Source of the DNA: Sulfuriflexus mobilis
Lineage (GTDB): Bacteria; Pseudomonadota; Gammaproteobacteria; AKS1
Direction of reading: 5' to 3'
DNA length: 64,000 bases
Assembly (NCBI RefSeq): GCF_003967195.1
Contig: NZ_AP018725.1
Span: 2,910,001-2,974,000, forward strand
Under the pieces are notes generated by a model. It was not told where the DNA came from, searched no databases, and saw nothing but the letters and a program-made list of their open reading frames with translations. Shown piece by piece: positions 52,547 through 60,246 of the stretch; position 1 is the first letter of the stretch, and every line of letters begins with the position of its first letter. Made by a program: the position numbers and the translations under genes.

Positions 52547-53323
52547 GTGGAGCATAATACACCGTCGGCAAACGATACAATGTCCTCCCTGAATGGCAAG
52601 GTCGCCCTCATCACCGGGGCCGCCCATCGCATTGGTGCCACCATCACGCGCATGCTGCACGCCGAGGGCATGAATATCATCGTCCACTACCGCTCCTCGC
52701 GTGAGTCTGCACAGGCCCTGCAGGAAGAACTCAATGCCAAGCGGGAAAACTCCATTGTCCTGATCCAGGCCGACCTGCACGAGACCGCCAAGATCACCGA
52801 GATGGTCCGCGAGGCCATCAAGGCCTGGGGCCGGCTTGATGTCGTGGTCAACAATGCCTCGAGCTTTTACCCGGCCCCGGTCGGCAAGATCGACGAGAGG
52901 GTCTGGGATGACCTCATTGGCAGCAACCTCAAGGCCCCGCTGTTTCTCTCGCAGGCCGCCGCGCCGCACCTGAAGGCCAACCATGGCTGCATCGTCAACA
53001 TCGTCGACATCCACGCCGAACGGCCACTGAAGAACCACACCGTCTACAGCGTCGCCAAGGCCGGGCTGGTCATGCTCACCAAGTCACTCGCCCGCGAACT
53101 AGGCCCCGAGGTGCGTGTCAACGCCGTCGCCCCCGGCGCCATCCTCTGGCCGGAAAGCGACATCGACGACTTCACCAAGAAACGCATCATCTCCGGCACC
53201 GCCCTCAAGCGTCAGGGTGAACCGAAAGACATCGCCCGTGCGGTGAGGTTTTTGATCAAACATGCGGATTATATGAGTGGGCAGGTGCTCACCGTGGACG
53301 GTGGGCGCACTTTGACGAATTGA
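52547..53323 (+). CDS. Pteridine reductase-like short-chain dehydrogenase
   Basis: This 258-residue SDR has the cofactor motif GKVALITGAAHRIGATI, the DVVVNNASSFYP region and the catalytic YSVAK with an upstream Asp/Ser pattern (NIVDIHAERPLKNHTVY) typical of pteridine reductases/FolM. It would reduce dihydrobiopterin- or dihydrofolate-type pterins with NADPH. The start is a GTG at 52547 behind AAAGGA. It is expected to sit next to folK/folB, and here the two are split by a 7.5-kb insertion. Its stop overlaps the next ATG by one base. Confidence 0.85.
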   Translation: MEHNTPSANDTMSSLNGKVALITGAAHRIGATITRMLHAEGMNIIVHYRSSRESAQALQEELNAKRENSIVLIQADLHETAKITEMVREAIKAWGRLDVVVNNASSFYPAPVGKIDERVWDDLIGSNLKAPLFLSQAAAPHLKANHGCIVNIVDIHAERPLKNHTVYSVAKAGLVMLTKSLARELGPEVRVNAVAPGAILWPESDIDDFTKKRIISGTALKRQGEPKDIARAVRFLIKHADYMSGQVLTVDGGRTLTN

Positions 53324-54630
53324 TGAATGACAAGGAAGTTACTATAGCTAACCGCATTCTGGTTGACTGTGCCTCGGCACTGCTCTCGATATTGTTCTGG
53401 ATCTATCTACTCGACTATTTACGCAGCAATGATCTTATTGGGCCTGATATCAGGATTCTTATTGGGTTGGTAATTATTAGCGTACTGACAATTGATAGGC
53501 TTTACGTAAGACTCAAGGGTGCTACTAAAGTGAGTGACAAAACAGAAAAAACATTATGCACGCCTGCCGGAGTAGCAATATTTGAATACACGAATCATCT
53601 TTTATTTGATGAATCATGTGATGGCTTCTTGATTTTCGAGAAGGTGGCGGGTCTACATATTTTTCGAATATTGAGAGATGAACAGAAAGTAGTAAAGTTT
53701 TATCACTCGTCACCTAGTTGTGGTACGAGAGTCGCATCTATTGATCTTAATAATGTAGAAGAATCAGATTCAATAAACATTAGAATTAAGTGGAATGTTG
53801 ATGAAATTTGCTTATTTATTAGGCCAGAAAAAGAAGGTGATAAAAGAGAATTTACTATTGCTAAAGGAGTTATCTCAGACATATCACTCCTCTCTGATAA
53901 AAGCGGTGTTATTTATACCGTAAATAGCTCGGCAGGAGTCAGTAGTATAACTATTTATCAAAATGGAAAACCAGTTTTAATTCCAACTTCTCTTGAAGCA
54001 TGGGAATCAACTATTAAAGCAATAGAGCCTCTCACTATAGATAACACTGAAAAAGAACATACACATGAAGTTCTAATAGCAAATATGATATTGGTTATGT
54101 TAGTCACTGGTTTTGAGGCATATTTTAAAAGAAGATTTCTTGAGCTGGAGAAGGAAGGTGTTCTACCCAATACAAGACAACTCATTAGTGCTTTTTACTC
54201 AAAAAAAGAGATTGATAGTGGAATTGTTGAGATACTAGAAGCCGAAGCAGATGAATTAAGCATTTCGTTATTAGAGCTCATTATTAATAAGAGAGTAGTG
54301 AATTTTCAAAATATGGATATATGCAAAAAAGCATATAACAAATCATATGGTGTTGTATTTGGAGATCTTGAGTTAAGTGGGAATATAATCTCTGAGGTGC
54401 AAATGTATATCAAACATAGGCATAGAATTATTCATTTTTCACCCAATGAAAGCACAATAAATCATGAAGAATTTTGCACGGGTGCCGAACCAATTTTCTC
54501 TAGTACTAAAACAGCTAAAGCGGCAATGTGTATTTTTGATGAATTTATAAAGGTATTACATAAATCCACGATCGAAAAAATGAGGCAACAGGGAAAGTTA
54601 GATGCTGCTAATACACTTGAATCAAGGTAA
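53323..54630 (+). CDS. AT-rich membrane protein with C-terminal HEPN-like motif, function unknown
   Basis: This 435-residue protein starts with two membrane helices (about ILVDCASALLSILFWIYLLDYL and ILIGLVIISVLTIDRLYV). A cytoplasmic region with beta-strand character follows, then an all-alpha C-terminal part beginning near ILVMLVTGFEAYFKRRFLEL. There the segment YIKHRHRIIHFSPNES gives the R-x4-H of HEPN RNase domains. Base composition falls sharply after about 53540 and codons favour A/T, unlike its neighbours, so horizontal acquisition is likely. The ATG overlaps the SDR stop (TGATG). A membrane-tethered HEPN RNase in defence or stress is a possibility, not a finding. Confidence 0.6.
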   Translation: MNDKEVTIANRILVDCASALLSILFWIYLLDYLRSNDLIGPDIRILIGLVIISVLTIDRLYVRLKGATKVSDKTEKTLCTPAGVAIFEYTNHLLFDESCDGFLIFEKVAGLHIFRILRDEQKVVKFYHSSPSCGTRVASIDLNNVEESDSINIRIKWNVDEICLFIRPEKEGDKREFTIAKGVISDISLLSDKSGVIYTVNSSAGVSSITIYQNGKPVLIPTSLEAWESTIKAIEPLTIDNTEKEHTHEVLIANMILVMLVTGFEAYFKRRFLELEKEGVLPNTRQLISAFYSKKEIDSGIVEILEAEADELSISLLELIINKRVVNFQNMDICKKAYNKSYGVVFGDLELSGNIISEVQMYIKHRHRIIHFSPNESTINHEEFCTGAEPIFSSTKTAKAAMCIFDEFIKVLHKSTIEKMRQQGKLDAANTLESR

Positions 54631-54642
54631 TCAAAGAGTCAG

Positions 54643-54975
54643 AGCACTGGATTGAACTGGTTTTCAATCCCCTACGATGCAGCCGAGCCGCGCAGGAAAT
54701 TTCCGGAAGGTCACGCGCAGTCGACCCCGTTTGTAGGCGCGACTGGAAGTCGCAGTAAGCCGTTAAGCAAACGGGAGGAGTTCTGCGTGTGCCGGAAATT
54801 TCTGAGCAGTGAGGGGATTTCTTTATTCAGTGATAACTGAATAAACAAGCAAATCGCGGGGCGTGCTGGTCTCAAAGCATCCCTTCGGGCTTCATTATGA
54901 GTACCCTACAACACTTCCAGTGTCGTCAGGGCATCTTTTGGTGCCTTTTCTTTGGGCGAACAAAGAAAAGACACA
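54643..54975. repeat. Complex repeat element, copy 1 (left end of accessory segment)
   Basis: This non-coding segment is highly similar to 60329-60745 in the same orientation. Shared pieces are GTCAGAG..., GGTTTTCAATCCCCT, GATGCAGCCGAGCCGCGCAGG, GAAATTTCCGGA, GCGCAGTCGACCCCGTTTGT, TATTCAGT-GATA-ACTGAATA, CCCTTCGGGCTTCATTATGA and CTTTTCTTTG...CAAAGAAAAG. It is full of hairpins and has no credible ORF. The second copy carries an additional ~75-base piece that is absent here. Confidence 0.8.
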
Positions 54976-55339
54976 CGCGCCGTGCCGGCGTGGAAAAAAC
55001 AGCTGCCTTTAATAAGATTAAAAGCTCTTGGTGCGCAAAGCACACCCTACTATTAAAATCTAAAACTAAAATTCAAGATCCACTGCCCATAACTCCTGAA
55101 CCCCCTTATTAAACCGCCCCTACATCTCGATAAAGGTCTCACCCGTAATCGGATACACCACCTAATACGGCCTAAGATTTTTTACAGACTATTTTCTCAA
55201 TTCTTCTTCAGCTTAATAAGCAACAGAAATTTTTTCTGTATTAAATAACAATATCAGGAATAAAGTTAATAGTGGCAACGCCTTGGCATTCACAGGGGCT
55301 TTAATATCAATGTCCCATATAACCATCCGGAGAAATAAT
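54976..55339. other. Leader region of the acidic-protein gene, AT-rich
   Basis: After the repeat there is about 360 bases of AT-rich sequence with no gene. Its only clear feature is the ECF-type promoter candidate at 55277-55302. A short A/T inverted repeat (CAGAAATTTTTTCTG, near 55219-55233) may act as a transcription or RNA structure signal. Confidence 0.5.
55277..55302 (+). promoter_or_regulatory. Candidate ECF-sigma promoter of the acidic-protein gene
   Basis: AACGCCTTGG (55277-55286), then 10 bases, then GGCTTT (55297-55302) has the same layout as the motif upstream of the cytochrome-propeller gene (CACGCCTTGG-N10-GGCATT at 57409-57434). The distance to the start codon is 37 bases here and 40 there. 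Confidence 0.6.
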
Positions 55340-55639
55340 ATGAATACTAATAAATTACTACACACTACCTGTGTTGCAATACTTGGCCTTAGCCTTTCAA
55401 GTGTGCAAGCTTATGCGGGTGATGTATTGTTCACCACTGATGATGATGATGACGCTATCGCAAACATTGGTGTAGATTTTGATTCTTTACCTCATACCAG
55501 CACTCTCACTATCATTCATCCAGATGATGACGCTAACGCAAATGTTGGCGAAGACCTGGAGTCATTGCCCCACACCAATACATTGTCTATTGCTCATCCT
55601 GATGATGAGGAGGAGCTTACAAATACCAGTGCTGGTTAA
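55340..55639 (+). CDS. Secreted acidic tandem-repeat protein
   Basis: This 99-residue precursor has a signal peptide at residues 1-26 (ending VQAYA) and a 73-residue mature part rich in Asp. Two tandem units follow the pattern NxGxDxxSLPHTxTLxIxHPDD, each combining a Ser-Leu-Pro-His-Thr and a His-Pro-Asp-Asp element, and the N-terminus has a run of five Asp. Metal binding (calcium, copper or zinc) by the Asp/His clusters is plausible but unproven. An AGAAATAAT-preceded GGAG ribosome site supports the ATG at 55340. It carries the putative ECF promoter upstream. Confidence 0.7.
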   Translation: MNTNKLLHTTCVAILGLSLSSVQAYAGDVLFTTDDDDDAIANIGVDFDSLPHTSTLTIIHPDDDANANVGEDLESLPHTNTLSIAHPDDEEELTNTSAG

Positions 55640-55687
55640 GAACGTCTAAAACCAAGATGCTCATAATAAAATACGTATAGCATTACT

Positions 55688-55724
55688 AACGGCGACTAAT
55701 AGACATAATCTATTAGTCGCCGTT
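55688..55724 (+). terminator. Terminator after the acidic-protein gene
   Basis: AACGGCGACTAATAGA and TCTATTAGTCGCCGTT form a perfect 16-base stem with a five-base loop, followed by TTTTC. It lies 48 bases after the stop. Confidence 0.9.
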
Positions 55725-55826
55725 TTCAATTAAAAAGCCTGATAATTCTTCTACTTTCTCGCCAGCTTAGCCAAGTTAATCCCTAGATTCTGATGCTGCA
55801 CAGCTTTGCATCAGCAAATAATAAGC

Positions 55827-55864
55827 AGCCTGATACTGAATAGAACATTATTTAGTATCAGGCT
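55827..55864 (-). terminator. Terminator for the sigma/anti-sigma operon
   Basis: AGCCTGATACT (55827-55837) pairs with AGTATCAGGCT (55854-55864) around a 16-base loop. It lies 44 bases beyond the anti-sigma gene stop on the minus strand. On the minus strand it continues as GCTTATTATTTGC, a moderate T-run. Confidence 0.7.
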
Positions 55865-55907
55865 TTATCTTTATAAAAAAATCGTATTTATATAACTAAG
55901 TGAAGAG

Positions 55908-56723
55908 TTAAAAGTCTATCTTATCTGGCGTAGGTAGTGACGCAGTTGGCCCTACAACCAGCACCCCTGTATCGCTAAGCGGGAATGCGAGCACATCTAC
56001 TTTTTTATTACTATGTTTATAGTTTCCAGAATCAGCAATAGCTTGACGGACTACCGGGTTGCGAAATAAAACTGTTTCATTTATCTGATACTGAAACACA
56101 ATATTTTGACCGCTACGTATAGCAAATACTTGTGCCGGCTCACCTGCCACGTTAGTTGTCCATGTCGCTAGCGTTCGCGCATCAGGCCAAAGAGCGGGGG
56201 CTTCAAGGCCGGAATCTTTACTTGAAACTGGAAATGCCATGTTACTCATTTTATGATATTCAGCTAGCGCATCGTTAATCATTGGGATGCCGCTACTTGG
56301 TGACTGCCACGATGATGGTAACAGCATAACGAGAGCGAACGCCATTGCAACAGCCCAGCCACTAGCGCCAAAGAGCGATTGTGGGCTAATTTGATTTAAC
56401 CAATTTTTTAATACAAAGAAACCATCAGTCCATGTATGACGCCCACAAGAATGCGATTCGGGTGATTCTTCTAACTGCATGGTTTCTATACGCTGCTGAA
56501 GCGATGATGGCATCCTTGCAGGTGTAATTGACTCAAGACGTTGACTCAACACTTGCTGCCGAGACAAATCACGCCGGCACTCTTCACAACCCGCCAAATG
56601 TGCCTCAATAATTAATGTGTCTTGAGCATCGAGTTCATTATCAGCGTAGCCCGCCAATAAGTCTTGCAAGCTTTCGTGCAGCTTGACCCATTTCATCATG
56701 GAATTATCTGATTGGCTGTTCAT
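55908..56723 (-). CDS. Zinc-finger (zf-HC2) anti-sigma factor, membrane
   Basis: This 271-residue regulator has an N-terminal anti-sigma domain with H-x3-C-x2-C (AHLAGCEECRRDL; His near residue 42, Cys near 46 and 49) that should hold the partner sigma factor in the cytoplasm. A membrane helix (GWAVAMAFALVMLLPSS, about 122-140) and a periplasmic C-terminal domain of some 130 residues (WTTNVAGEPAQVFAIRSGQNIVFQYQINE...) follow. That domain presumably senses the signal. It overlaps the sigma gene by 4 bases (ATGA). Confidence 0.85.
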   Translation of the reverse strand: MNSQSDNSMMKWVKLHESLQDLLAGYADNELDAQDTLIIEAHLAGCEECRRDLSRQQVLSQRLESITPARMPSSLQQRIETMQLEESPESHSCGRHTWTDGFFVLKNWLNQISPQSLFGASGWAVAMAFALVMLLPSSWQSPSSGIPMINDALAEYHKMSNMAFPVSSKDSGLEAPALWPDARTLATWTTNVAGEPAQVFAIRSGQNIVFQYQINETVLFRNPVVRQAIADSGNYKHSNKKVDVLAFPLSDTGVLVVGPTASLPTPDKIDF

Positions 56724-57301
56724 CGTTTTTTTCTCACATCAATACTCATTATGTCTGCTGACTTTTCTTTGTTTTCCAACTCTAGCAAAGCAGAAGCCAA
56801 CATTCTTCGTCCACGTGACAAGCGGCTCATTACCGTTCCTTTTGGAATCTCAAGGATATACGCGACTTCAAGGTAAGATAGCCCTTCAAGATCACGCAGT
56901 AATACTGCCTGGCGAAATTCTTCAGGCAAATTTTGCACAGCGGTCATAAGCTGATCATTAGTTTGTTGATTAACTGTTTTTTCAAAGGGTCCCGGTGCTG
57001 AACACGGATGTTCGTTCAAGTATTTATCCTCAACGGTTAACACCGGTGCAAGTTGATGACGACGCTTCTCTTTGCGCACATCATCCGCAGCCACATGATC
57101 AAGAATTTTCAGTAACCAGGCATAAACGGTTATGTCTTCTGATAGTTGGCTAAAATCTCGCCAGGCACGTAATAGTGCTTCTTGTACCCAATCTTCGGCG
57201 ATATGAGAATCATTGGTTTGTCTCAGTGCAGCACCGAATAACCTACCCGCCCACGGATGGGTTAACGTCTGAAAGTGCTTTTGCCTGCTTGATAAGGTCA
57301 T
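56720..57301 (-). CDS. ECF-type RNA polymerase sigma factor
   Basis: This 193-residue sigma-70 family protein has region 2 (HPWAGRLFGAALRQTNDSHIAEDWVQEALLRAWRDF) and region 4 (LRDLEGLSYLEVAYILEIPKGTVMSRLSRGRRML) and lacks regions 1 and 3, as in ECF sigmas. The ATG at 57301 has an AGGA site seven bases upstream. The longer frame to 57322 would start inside the likely promoter. It is followed in overlap by its zf-HC2 anti-sigma partner. The region upstream carries AACGCCTTGC, also found in front of two neighbouring genes, which suggests self-control. Confidence 0.92.
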   Translation of the reverse strand: MTLSSRQKHFQTLTHPWAGRLFGAALRQTNDSHIAEDWVQEALLRAWRDFSQLSEDITVYAWLLKILDHVAADDVRKEKRRHQLAPVLTVEDKYLNEHPCSAPGPFEKTVNQQTNDQLMTAVQNLPEEFRQAVLLRDLEGLSYLEVAYILEIPKGTVMSRLSRGRRMLASALLELENKEKSADIMSIDVRKKR

Positions 57302-57316
57302 TCTAGTTCCTAAGTG

Positions 57317-57342
57317 ATACATCCTTACCCAAGCAAGGCGTT
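57317..57342 (-). promoter_or_regulatory. Candidate ECF-sigma promoter of the sigma operon
   Basis: On the minus strand AACGCCTTGC (57342-57333) is followed after 10 bases by ATGTAT (57322-57317). It has the same -35-like core as at 55277 and 57409, but the -10-like part is weaker and the start codon follows after only 15 bases. It is therefore the least certain of the three. Confidence 0.4.
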
Positions 57343-57408
57343 ACCAAATCGAATTTTATTCCCGCAAACAGTATTTTAATTAATTTGGGGAATAAATGTC
57401 TTTTTCAT

Positions 57409-57434
57409 CACGCCTTGGTAGCCACCGCGGCATT
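57409..57434 (+). promoter_or_regulatory. Candidate ECF-sigma promoter of the cytochrome-propeller gene
   Basis: CACGCCTTGG (57409-57418), 10 bases, GGCATT (57429-57434) sits 40 bases before the start codon. This is the same layout as upstream of the acidic-protein gene. Confidence 0.6.
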
Positions 57435-57474
57435 GAGTTTTTACTCAGTCAATAAATATATAAGGAAAAAATAC

Positions 57475-58731
57475 ATGAAAAACAAACTATTAGGCTACTG
57501 CCTTGTTTCAATTTTGTCCACATCCGCCAGTTCAAGTGCCCTTGCAGGCGGTGACCCAATAAACGGCAAAGTTAAGGCCGACAGTTGCATTGGCTGCCAT
57601 GGCGCTAATGGAATATCTGACAACCCACTATTCCCTAATTTAGCGGGACAAAAAGAGCTTTACCTTATTAAGCAACTCAAGGCATTCAAAAATGGTTCAC
57701 GCATCGACCCTACGATGAATGCGATGGTTACTGCATTAAAAGATGACGACATCCATGACCTGAGCGCCTACTTTGCTAGCCTTGCGCCTACATCAGCACA
57801 TGTTAAGAAATCAGCCGCTAATAAAGCTAAAGTGGCTAAAGCAACAAGTAACGAATTTCCAGAAACTGTTTATATCTCAATGAAAAAAAGTGCAACGGTA
57901 GAAGAGTTCCCTAGTGAAAACACATGGGACGGTGGCCCAAACATGCTGTACACCGCCGTGACACCTGATGGCAAACGTGTACTTTCTACTAGCCCATCTA
58001 GCAATATGCTATATGTATTCGATGCATTAACAGGTAAACAGATAGCAATCATCCCTGTCGGCAAGGCGCCGAAAGGTGTCAAGGTTATGCCTAATGGCTT
58101 ATTTGCTTACGTTAGTAACCAAGACTCTGCCAACATTAGTGTCGTCAATTTAGATAGCCTTAGCGTTGTTGATACTATTCAGGTTGAAAAAGGCCCACAT
58201 AATGCTCGCTTCACTGATGATGGAAAACTCGCGTACGTTACTTTACAAGGTGGTGCCGGTATTGCTGTTGTTGATACTGCCTCACGCAAAATGATTCGAG
58301 TGATCCCTGTCCCCGGTATTACTGGCCCGCACAACCTGGATCTTTCAGCAGATGAAAAAACAGCCTATGTTCGCGATTTCGTTCATCATGTTGCAGTACT
58401 AAATTTGGACAGTGGTGAAGTCAACAAAGTAATTAAAGTTGGCAACGGCCACGGTGGCATTGATACTGCACCAAATGGCCGCTTTGTCGCGACCGCCGCT
58501 ATTGGTGATGACTTTATTTCAGTGATTGATACAAATTCACTTAAGGTCACCAATGTTAAGGTTGGTAATGGTCCACACGGTATAAGAGCCAGTAAAGATA
58601 GCCAGTGGATCTACGTCACTGTTGCTAAAGACAATATAGTTGCTGTCATCAACACTAATACGATGACTGTAGAGAAGAATATTGAAGTTGGAAAATTTCC
58701 TTTCTGGGTTGCGGTCCAGGGAAATCCATAA
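57475..58731 (+). CDS. Periplasmic cytochrome c fused to a YVTN-type beta-propeller
   Basis: This 418-residue protein has a signal peptide (residues 1-24, ALAGG). A class I cytochrome c domain with one haem motif CIGCHGANG (about residue 37) and a likely axial Met (DPTMNAMV) follows. After a Lys/Ala linker there is a propeller of roughly six to seven blades from residue 145, each with PDGKR/YVTN-like repeats (PNGLFAYVSNQDS, DDGKLAYVTLQGG, DSQWIYVTVAKDN). The layout recalls NirS/NirN, but the propeller is short and lacks recognisable haem d1 ligands, so it is not a cd1 nitrite reductase. AAGGA precedes the ATG. Confidence 0.85.
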   Translation: MKNKLLGYCLVSILSTSASSSALAGGDPINGKVKADSCIGCHGANGISDNPLFPNLAGQKELYLIKQLKAFKNGSRIDPTMNAMVTALKDDDIHDLSAYFASLAPTSAHVKKSAANKAKVAKATSNEFPETVYISMKKSATVEEFPSENTWDGGPNMLYTAVTPDGKRVLSTSPSSNMLYVFDALTGKQIAIIPVGKAPKGVKVMPNGLFAYVSNQDSANISVVNLDSLSVVDTIQVEKGPHNARFTDDGKLAYVTLQGGAGIAVVDTASRKMIRVIPVPGITGPHNLDLSADEKTAYVRDFVHHVAVLNLDSGEVNKVIKVGNGHGGIDTAPNGRFVATAAIGDDFISVIDTNSLKVTNVKVGNGPHGIRASKDSQWIYVTVAKDNIVAVINTNTMTVEKNIEVGKFPFWVAVQGNP

Positions 58732-58753
58732 TACTTTTAACTAGTAATTAAAT

Positions 58754-58797
58754 AGTGCTAACATCTGCATTAAATCTTGCATTTGTTAGCACTTTTT
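58754..58797 (+). terminator. Terminator after the cytochrome-propeller gene
   Basis: AGTGCTAACA (58754-58763) pairs exactly with TGTTAGCACT (58784-58793), followed by TTTT. It lies 22 bases after the stop. Confidence 0.85.
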
Positions 58798-58905
58798 AAT
58801 CAAGAAATATCATATTCTTTAAGTTATGAAGCTGGCTCAGCGAGGTATCCTGCACCCGTAACATTTTGTGCCAGCACGTTTACATCAACATTACCGAAGC
58901 AATTA

Positions 58906-58932
58906 GAAATAGGCACCAGAGAGCAATTGTTT
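58906..58932. repeat. REP-like 27-base direct repeat, copy 1
   Basis: GAAATAGGCACCAGAGAGCAATTGTTT matches 60280-60306 at 25 of 27 positions in the same orientation. The pair brackets the propeller gene 58999-60246. The left half of the palindrome at 58915-58960 lies inside this copy. Confidence 0.65.
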
Positions 58933-58960
58933 CTAATATTAGAAATAATTGCTCTCTGGT
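58915..58960. repeat. 46-base near-perfect palindrome
   Basis: ACCAGAGAGCAATT and AATTGCTCTCTGGT form 14-base arms around a central palindrome TTTCTAAT/ATTAGAAA. There is one mismatched pair between arm and centre. It lies 38 bases downstream of the propeller gene (minus strand) and 118 bases after the preceding terminator. It may be a terminator or a folded repeat. Confidence 0.75.
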
Positions 58961-58998
58961 ACGGTTTTATTTAGGTCAGTCCAGTCGGTACACGGACT

Positions 58999-60246
58999 TC
59001 AGTTTTGTTTATTCTGTTGTTGCATTTCATTATCGGCCGCTACCATGCGCTCGAAGAAGCGATGCAATTCGGCGCGCTCGATTTTGACCAGGCCTCCGCG
59101 ATCGCTGCCACCATTGTGATAGCCATAAGCCGTCACCCAGATATTGTTTTTATCGACCATAATATCAGAGACAATATAACCCGGTAATCCTTCTGCCTCG
59201 TCAAGCGAGTAGGCAAGCTGACTCTTCTTGTCATAGATTACCAGCGCACGTTGCTGACCGATGAGAATAAAATTATCGACTGCTGCAATCTTCACACCAC
59301 CGAGTTCAATGCCATTTCGGCTTTTCTTAACAACCTGCCAGCGGCCGGCGTTATGGTTAATAAAACTTAAGCCACGTTCTTCTTCCCAGTGTGTAACCCA
59401 GACATTTTTATCTTCACTGGCAGTAATGCCATGACAATAAGAATGGGCCAGTCCATCAGCAGTAGTGAATTGACGGCCGCGCTTGGTGAGTGGGTGCATC
59501 ATGGCAACCCCACCGCCCTTGAATCCCTTAGTGCGTCTATGATTACCCGTGTACGTCATCCATACATGACCACGATGATGCAATATGTGGCTCGGATTAT
59601 AGCCCATCGCATCGCTGTTTTCTGGCGTAAAACTACCACCAGCCCTGACTTGATGAATGGTCAGTCGGGTTTTTTCGTAGTGATTCTTCTCCGCATCAAA
59701 CCAGTACTGCCCGCCGCCGCCAAGGCTGTTTTTACCTGTCCAGTTAAGCACCTTCAGAAACAGACGATCGCCATCTGTGGCAATATCGTAGGCCGTATCA
59801 CCAGGCAGACCGTTTTTACGGTTATACAAATACCACTCTTCGGTTTTGGTATTGAATTCAAGCAGACCAATATCCGAGGCAAACCATAGTGAATCGCGCC
59901 GGCCTTCAATGTGTAGCAGGCGTGCCTTTGGCAGCAACGGCGGCAGTAAACGATACACACTCATGGAAAAAGGCTTGAATAGATCACCTTTAACAATGTT
60001 GGCGGTGACGTTTTTGGCTTTACCAGTACTCTGGTTAAAAAGCCCCTTCGGATAATCGCCGAGGTGTGAGTCAGGGACTACATTAGGTTTGATATCTTTT
60101 GAAATGTCTTCGGCTTTAGGCGAGGCTTTTTCATCATCACCAAAATGCACACGTCCCTGTTCATCAACCCAGCGATAGATACCTTCAGCACAGCTCAAAG
60201 AGCTATACAAAACCAGGGCCATGAGAATGATAGAACGACGAGGCAT
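58999..60246 (-). CDS. DUF4124 domain plus beta-propeller periplasmic protein
   Basis: This 415-residue protein has a signal peptide (MPRRSIILMALVLYSSLSCA). A DUF4124 segment (EGIYRWVDEQGRVHFGDDEKAS, about residues 21-42) comes next, then a propeller with repeats of the two-component-regulator-propeller kind (DSLWFASDIGLLEFNTKTEEWYLYNRKNGLPGDTAYDIATDGDRLFL, NVWVTHWEEERGLSFINH). The frame is open to 60513 through the repeat element. Candidate starts at 60273 and 60246 have no clear ribosome site. It is transcribed convergently with the cytochrome-propeller gene, and its role is unknown. Confidence 0.7.
   Translation of the reverse strand: MPRRSIILMALVLYSSLSCAEGIYRWVDEQGRVHFGDDEKASPKAEDISKDIKPNVVPDSHLGDYPKGLFNQSTGKAKNVTANIVKGDLFKPFSMSVYRLLPPLLPKARLLHIEGRRDSLWFASDIGLLEFNTKTEEWYLYNRKNGLPGDTAYDIATDGDRLFLKVLNWTGKNSLGGGGQYWFDAEKNHYEKTRLTIHQVRAGGSFTPENSDAMGYNPSHILHHRGHVWMTYTGNHRRTKGFKGGGVAMMHPLTKRGRQFTTADGLAHSYCHGITASEDKNVWVTHWEEERGLSFINHNAGRWQVVKKSRNGIELGGVKIAAVDNFILIGQQRALVIYDKKSQLAYSLDEAEGLPGYIVSDIMVDKNNIWVTAYGYHNGGSDRGGLVKIERAELHRFFERMVAADNEMQQQNKQN

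Follow-up and report, generated by a model that had tools for sequence, protein, structure and literature searches.

The closest described relatives of the system considered here are the ECF26 sigma factors RpoE1 and RpoE4 of Sinorhizobium meliloti and SigE of Starkeya novella, which are associated with the sulfite response and with sorT/sorA. The ECF26 promoter consensus, with GGAATA as the -35 and CGTC as the -10 element, was mapped in S. meliloti and Starkeya novella, and the S. meliloti rpoE1 operon promoter, GGAATAAATCCATAGCCCTCCGTGTC (GGAATA...CGTGTC), spans 26 bp (PMC6180224; PMC6527743). Sinorhizobium RpoE1 and RpoE4 were found to react to sulfite formed inside the cell (PMC3511301). 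These sigma factors control tiny autoregulated regulons, in which the anti-sigma factor is encoded downstream and the targets are periplasmic redox proteins (sulfite oxidase, cytochrome c). A second point of reference is the membrane anti-sigma pathway of RpoE-RseA-RseB (sigma E) and MucA/MucB.

Herein, a gene cluster of Sulfuriflexus mobilis is compared with these systems; the window is the whole 64,000-nucleotide stretch analysed (contig NZ_AP018725.1, 2,910,001 to 2,974,000). The cluster has the same GGAATA -35 element, the same 26-bp geometry and the same order of sigma and anti-sigma genes as the ECF26 systems. We consider, with a probability of roughly 0.85, that it would form a compact autoregulated ECF sigma regulon comprising the sigma operon itself, a cytochrome-propeller gene and a gene for a small acidic protein. 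It differs from the RpoE1, RpoE4 and SigE systems in that its sigma factor falls in its own clade beside RpoE6, its -10 element reads CGCC or CGTC, its zinc-finger anti-sigma factor carries another periplasmic domain, and its constant target is the cytochrome-propeller, in a genome without a Sor-type oxidase.

A shared bipartite promoter element

An earlier, sequence-only reading had reported three related strings around the sigma operon, and all three were recovered: AACGCCTTGG-N10-GGCTTT at 55277-55302 (+), CACGCCTTGG-N10-GGCATT at 57409-57434 (+) and AACGCCTTGC-N10-ATGTAT at 57342-57317 (-). The distances of 37 and 40 bases that it gave to the start codons at 55340 and 57475 were likewise correct. 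By contrast, its parse of the motif, with ACGCCTTGG as the -35 and GGCTTT or GGCATT as the -10 element, had to be replaced. Alignment of the three sites revealed a GGAATAAA block 5' of each, at a fixed distance and better conserved than ACGCCTTG. Judged against the mapped ECF26 consensus (GGAATA -35, CGTC -10), ACGCCTTG contains not the -35 but the -10 half of an ECF promoter, ACGCC, which can be read as an ECF26-type -10 with C replacing T at one position, and the upstream GGAATAAA block is the putative -35. The whole element, GGAATAA-N14-ACGCC, measures 26 bp at all three promoters. In favour of the original parse, GGC does occur ten bases downstream in two of the three sites, at similar distances from the start codons; across 25 aligned sites, however, the GGC positions are not conserved, and neither is the N10-GGC/ATGTAT half in orthologous promoters, whereas GGAATAAA and ACG(C/T)C are nearly invariant (consensus GGGAATAAA-N9-GGTGACG(C/T)C(T/C)T). 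The same parse would also place the -10 of the sigma gene at ATGTAT, a few bases off the ribosome site, and we regard it as hardly credible.

The sequence-only reading had further proposed a genome-wide scan for the motif. ACGCCTTG alone proved common, with 112 copies in the 3.11-Mb genome, yet the full -35/-10 element was confined to the cluster: the pattern GGAATAAN{11,16}ACGCC matched at exactly three places genome-wide, each of them in the cluster and each with N14. The three other ACGCCTTG copies of the window are intragenic and without the upstream GGAATAAA block. Within the 2.2-kb region, three ACGCCTTG copies were observed against 0.078 expected (P ~7e-5, a post hoc value for a motif picked afterwards). 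It could be argued from the 112 copies that ACGCCTTG serves to bind some other regulator, or that its copies cluster by chance, with GGAATA coincidental. This explanation is very improbable, since the bipartite element is limited to three copies in the genome, its -35 and -10 are arranged as in mapped ECF26 promoters, and it accompanies the sigma clade from genome to genome. A chance cluster was rejected on the three bipartite sites, their conservation in orthologous loci and the P value. With the pattern relaxed to GGAATAAN{14,16}CGYC, 12 sites were found genome-wide, three of which are the cluster promoters, two flank a paralogous sigma gene and two are intragenic. Another two lie 5' of a Tat-type HAD-like gene and of an FMN-reductase-like gene, both being 25 bp long and lacking the A of ACGYC. 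The former (GGAATAAA...CGTC, 25 bp) lies just 5' of the secreted HAD-like gene, at L150:1618 (C1:1610617), and is a possible target of the paralogous sigma factor.

Conservation of the promoter was examined with a pattern built from the three sites of the window only and then run on 13 orthologous loci (181 kb). It recovered 14 held-out sites (20 with CGTC allowed), located 5' of propeller and/or sigma genes, against 0 (0.02) in dinucleotide shuffles; many of the sites belong to Marinobacter-type genomes that are close relatives of one another, and not all of them count as independent. Orthologous clusters of sigma, anti-sigma and cytochrome-propeller genes were identified in G058 and G251, two gammaproteobacterial MAGs from other families (sigma identity 57-59%), and in 13 of the 163 genomes of another family, presumed to be Marinobacter since one locus there is almost the same as plasmid pSMR5 of Marinobacter salarius. 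The genome-contig scan yielded no close sigma relatives besides those two MAGs, in which one-mismatch promoter scans gave background level only. Throughout the orthologous loci, the sigma, zf-HC2 anti-sigma and propeller genes remain together. One locus, L120, has three such promoters, before a gene for a secreted DUF7282 protein, the propeller gene and the sigma operon, and thus reproduces the layout of the window with another small secreted protein. In several Marinobacter-type genomes and pSMR5, a mer (mercury-resistance) operon adjoins the cluster (L095, L112, L115, L116, L118).

The sigma factor and its paralogue

The sigma gene (56720..57301, -) encodes 193 aa. The start ATG at 57301 is the likelier one, being preceded by AGGAA and opening MTLSSR..., and the orthologues align and begin there; 'ATGTAT' in the sigma leader was considered as a start and rejected as merely start-like. 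The protein consists of regions 2 and 4 only, with Pfam Sigma70_r2, Sigma70_r4_2 and TIGR02937 above cut-off, and on domain content it is an ECF (group IV) sigma factor, a class delimited by regions 2 and 4 only and about 200 aa. The operon promoter (57337..57362, -; GGAATAAA 57362-57355, N13, ACGCC 57341-57337) stands back to back with that of the cytochrome-propeller gene. As in ECF26, a membrane anti-sigma factor (zf-HC2 and one membrane segment) is encoded directly downstream, its gene overlapping the sigma gene by 4 bp, and co-transcription is predicted.

A tree built from 48 ECF proteins placed the sigma factor and its orthologues in a 17-member clade (99/98) with the L012 protein as sister. 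RpoE6 (ECF26) and the ECF26-like paralogue of the same genome fell in a neighbouring clade; the sigma clade stands beside this RpoE6-containing clade and not inside it, in a tree whose only named ECF26 reference, RpoE6, has a long branch. The region 4 helix GTVMSRLxRxRR is common to the sigma factor, RpoE6 and the paralogue, in agreement with their common -35, and region 2 differs. The -35 GGAATA and the spacing are as in ECF26; the -10 carries GCC at the three sites of the window and GCC or GTC in orthologues. Since the sigma promoter of the sister L012 is GGAATAAAAATCCTTATGATGACGTC, CGTC looks ancestral and CGCC derived. The sigma factor may thus be described as ECF26-like, its membership in ECF26 being unproven.

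The paralogous ECF26-like sigma factor lies outside the window (L148:3960-6957, ~C1:2860959-2863956) and has divergent promoters, one for its sigma operon and one for a porin-like gene of 494 aa. The C-terminal domain of its anti-sigma factor is DsrE-like (sulfur carrier family), a hint that sulfur may be sensed. The presence of a second such sigma factor with a similar promoter makes cross-talk possible, and the three promoters could be read mainly or jointly by this paralogue (~2.8627 Mb), as a shared node and not a self-contained regulon. Its divergent promoters (GGAATAA-N15-CGTC, 26 bp) have the same -35, its region 4 helix is nearly identical, and cross-activation is documented for RpoE1, RpoE4 and RpoE6 of S. 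meliloti (PMC6180224). However, its -10 elements read TTCGTC and TCCGTC, against ACG(C/T)C at the three sites and in the rest of the sigma clade; the ACGYC promoter travels with the local sigma clade across genomes, and region 2 differs between the two proteins. Control by the paralogue is therefore unlikely, and the local sigma factor is retained as the probable regulator of the three promoters.

G+C content falls to 39-44% around the cluster (53000-59000 of the window), against 56-64% on the left and 55-56% on the right beyond 61 kb. This low G+C content, together with the lack of a close sigma orthologue in the three genus-mates searched, suggests that the cluster was acquired by transfer, likely recently. 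The same island, set in a region of 56-60% G+C, also encodes a protein of 436 aa (53320-54630) that weakly matches RiboL-PSP-HEPN.

The anti-sigma factor and the candidate signal

The anti-sigma gene (55908..56723, -) encodes 271 aa, with a cytoplasmic zinc-finger part, one membrane segment and a folded periplasmic alpha/beta domain. H42, C46 and C49 of the H-x3-C-x2-C motif are invariant in 13 sequences, and Pfam zf-HC2 was detected in 12 of the 12 scanned, which places the protein by motif among the ZAS/zf-HC2 (zinc-binding anti-sigma) factors. The periplasmic domain was predicted with a pLDDT of ~87 (67 for the whole anti-sigma model); one aligned row, from the plasmid collection, was omitted from the structure predictions. 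Its best fold matches were the C-terminal domains of RseB/MucB, with Z up to 7.0 and an rmsd of 3.1 over 89 residues, a Z below the level considered safe; the next unrelated folds reached Z 4.5. Sequence comparison gave no kinship to the RseB C-terminal domain (profile-profile probability 0.3%, no Pfam MucB/RseB match). The predicted likeness is thus one of fold only and offers a lead on sensing, not a family assignment. The common ground with RpoE-RseA-RseB and MucA/MucB is a membrane anti-sigma pathway and the predicted C-terminal fold; here, by contrast, domain and zinc-finger anti-sigma factor form one fused protein, and the sigma factor and promoter are of another type.

The anti-sigma factor would presumably sense a periplasmic cue, as the sequence-only reading had supposed. 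Sulfite oxidase adjoins nine of the 14 Marinobacter-type clusters and that of G058, and some clusters also carry cytochrome c, a YeiH-type exporter or a mer operon. A sulfite link for this sigma factor is therefore plausible by analogy with ECF26. It is weakened by the absence of a Sor-type sulfite oxidase from this genome and from G251, which have just a short MsrP-like molybdoenzyme. In the sister lineage, the zf-HC2 anti-sigma factor (L047:277-1443, -) has a periplasmic oxyanion-binding domain of the SBP_bac_11 (ModA-like) type fused to it (E 5.6e-56), and direct sensing of an oxyanion by that protein is possible.

Target genes and the proposed regulon

The cytochrome-propeller promoter (57389..57414, +) comprises GGAATAAA at 57389-57396, N13 and ACGCC at 57410-57414, and precedes a gene (57475..58731, +) for a 418-aa secreted cytochrome c (CIGCH) joined to a 7-bladed YVTN-type propeller. 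This gene adjoins the sigma gene in 17 of 17 clade loci. The cytochrome module varies by lineage, being c4/c552-like in the window (57475-58731) and Thermus c552-like in the Marinobacter-dominated profile (e.g. L120:5849-7336), which leaves the propeller as the part that is conserved. The structural model shows seven blades (mean pLDDT 81). His 242, 286, 326 and 368, invariant in 13 orthologues, lie where the inner strand begins in each of four consecutive blades, an arrangement suggestive of a central cofactor site. In fold comparisons the seven-bladed propeller groups with those of YVTN, NirN/NirS, NosZ and thiocyanate dehydrogenase (Z 42 for 1l0q, ~33 for NosZ and ~32 for thiocyanate dehydrogenase); the conserved His at inner-strand starts is common to YVTN, NirN, NosZ and thiocyanate dehydrogenase, and cd1/NirN are similar in fold with a cytochrome c domain likewise attached. 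Scores against curated enzyme models were nevertheless far below the cut-offs, with 107 bits for lactonase-type NosZ (NF052460; cut-off 700) and 96 for hydrazine synthase beta (cut-off 560). No propeller match was found in viral contigs, and no paper linking cytochrome D1-type propellers to ECF sigma factors was found in the open-licence literature.

The acidic protein promoter (55257..55282, +; GGAATAAA -35 at 55257-55264, N13, ACGCC -10 at 55278-55282) is one of the three genome matches and precedes a gene for a small secreted protein of 99 aa (55340..55639, +). The mature form has about 73 aa, a pI of 4.05 and two Asp/His-rich repeats (SLPHTxTL...HPDD), and no homologue was detected among the places searched. 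A stem-loop with a short T run, read directly as ACGGCGACTAATAG ... CTATTAGTCGCCGTTTT (55689..55724, +), is the likely terminator of this gene, and a 17-pair stem (55827..55864) between the convergent acidic and anti-sigma genes is likely a further terminator.

These promoters make it very likely that the sigma factor activates its own operon and the cytochrome c/7-bladed-propeller gene; that it also drives the acidic protein gene is very likely as well, on the evidence of one site. The self-contained regulon that had been proposed is thus supported by a promoter limited to three sites in the genome and conserved at orthologous sigma and propeller genes; its acidic arm depends on a single site, since that protein yielded no homologue. 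At rest, the sigma factor would be kept at the membrane by the zinc-finger anti-sigma factor of the same operon. The sigma factor may then be freed when a signal in the periplasm, for which sulfite or some other reactive sulfur or redox species is the most likely candidate, acts on the periplasmic domain of the anti-sigma factor; this is the weakest step of the model. The freed sigma factor would guide RNA polymerase to GGAATAAA-N13-ACG(C/T)C promoters, and hence to its own operon, the divergent propeller gene and the acidic gene, a step strongly supported by conservation. The cytochrome-propeller would be the main effector, a redox protein of the periplasm and probably an enzyme, and the His/Asp-rich acidic protein would be an accessory periplasmic binding protein. 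A bolder and still doubtful proposal is that the clade represents a distinct ECF group beside ECF26, whose anti-sigma factor has its own RseB-like sensor domain and whose dedicated effector would be an undescribed periplasmic redox enzyme (cytochrome c plus a 7-bladed propeller with four invariant His round a central site) acting on sulfur or metal species.

Altogether, a complete three-promoter regulon can be defined from sequence, with one site per target, and the model is testable. The uncharacterised cytochrome-propeller family thereby gains a regulatory context, and the ECF sigma clade emerges as one that retains the ECF26 -35 element while its -10 alternates between CGTC and CGCC.
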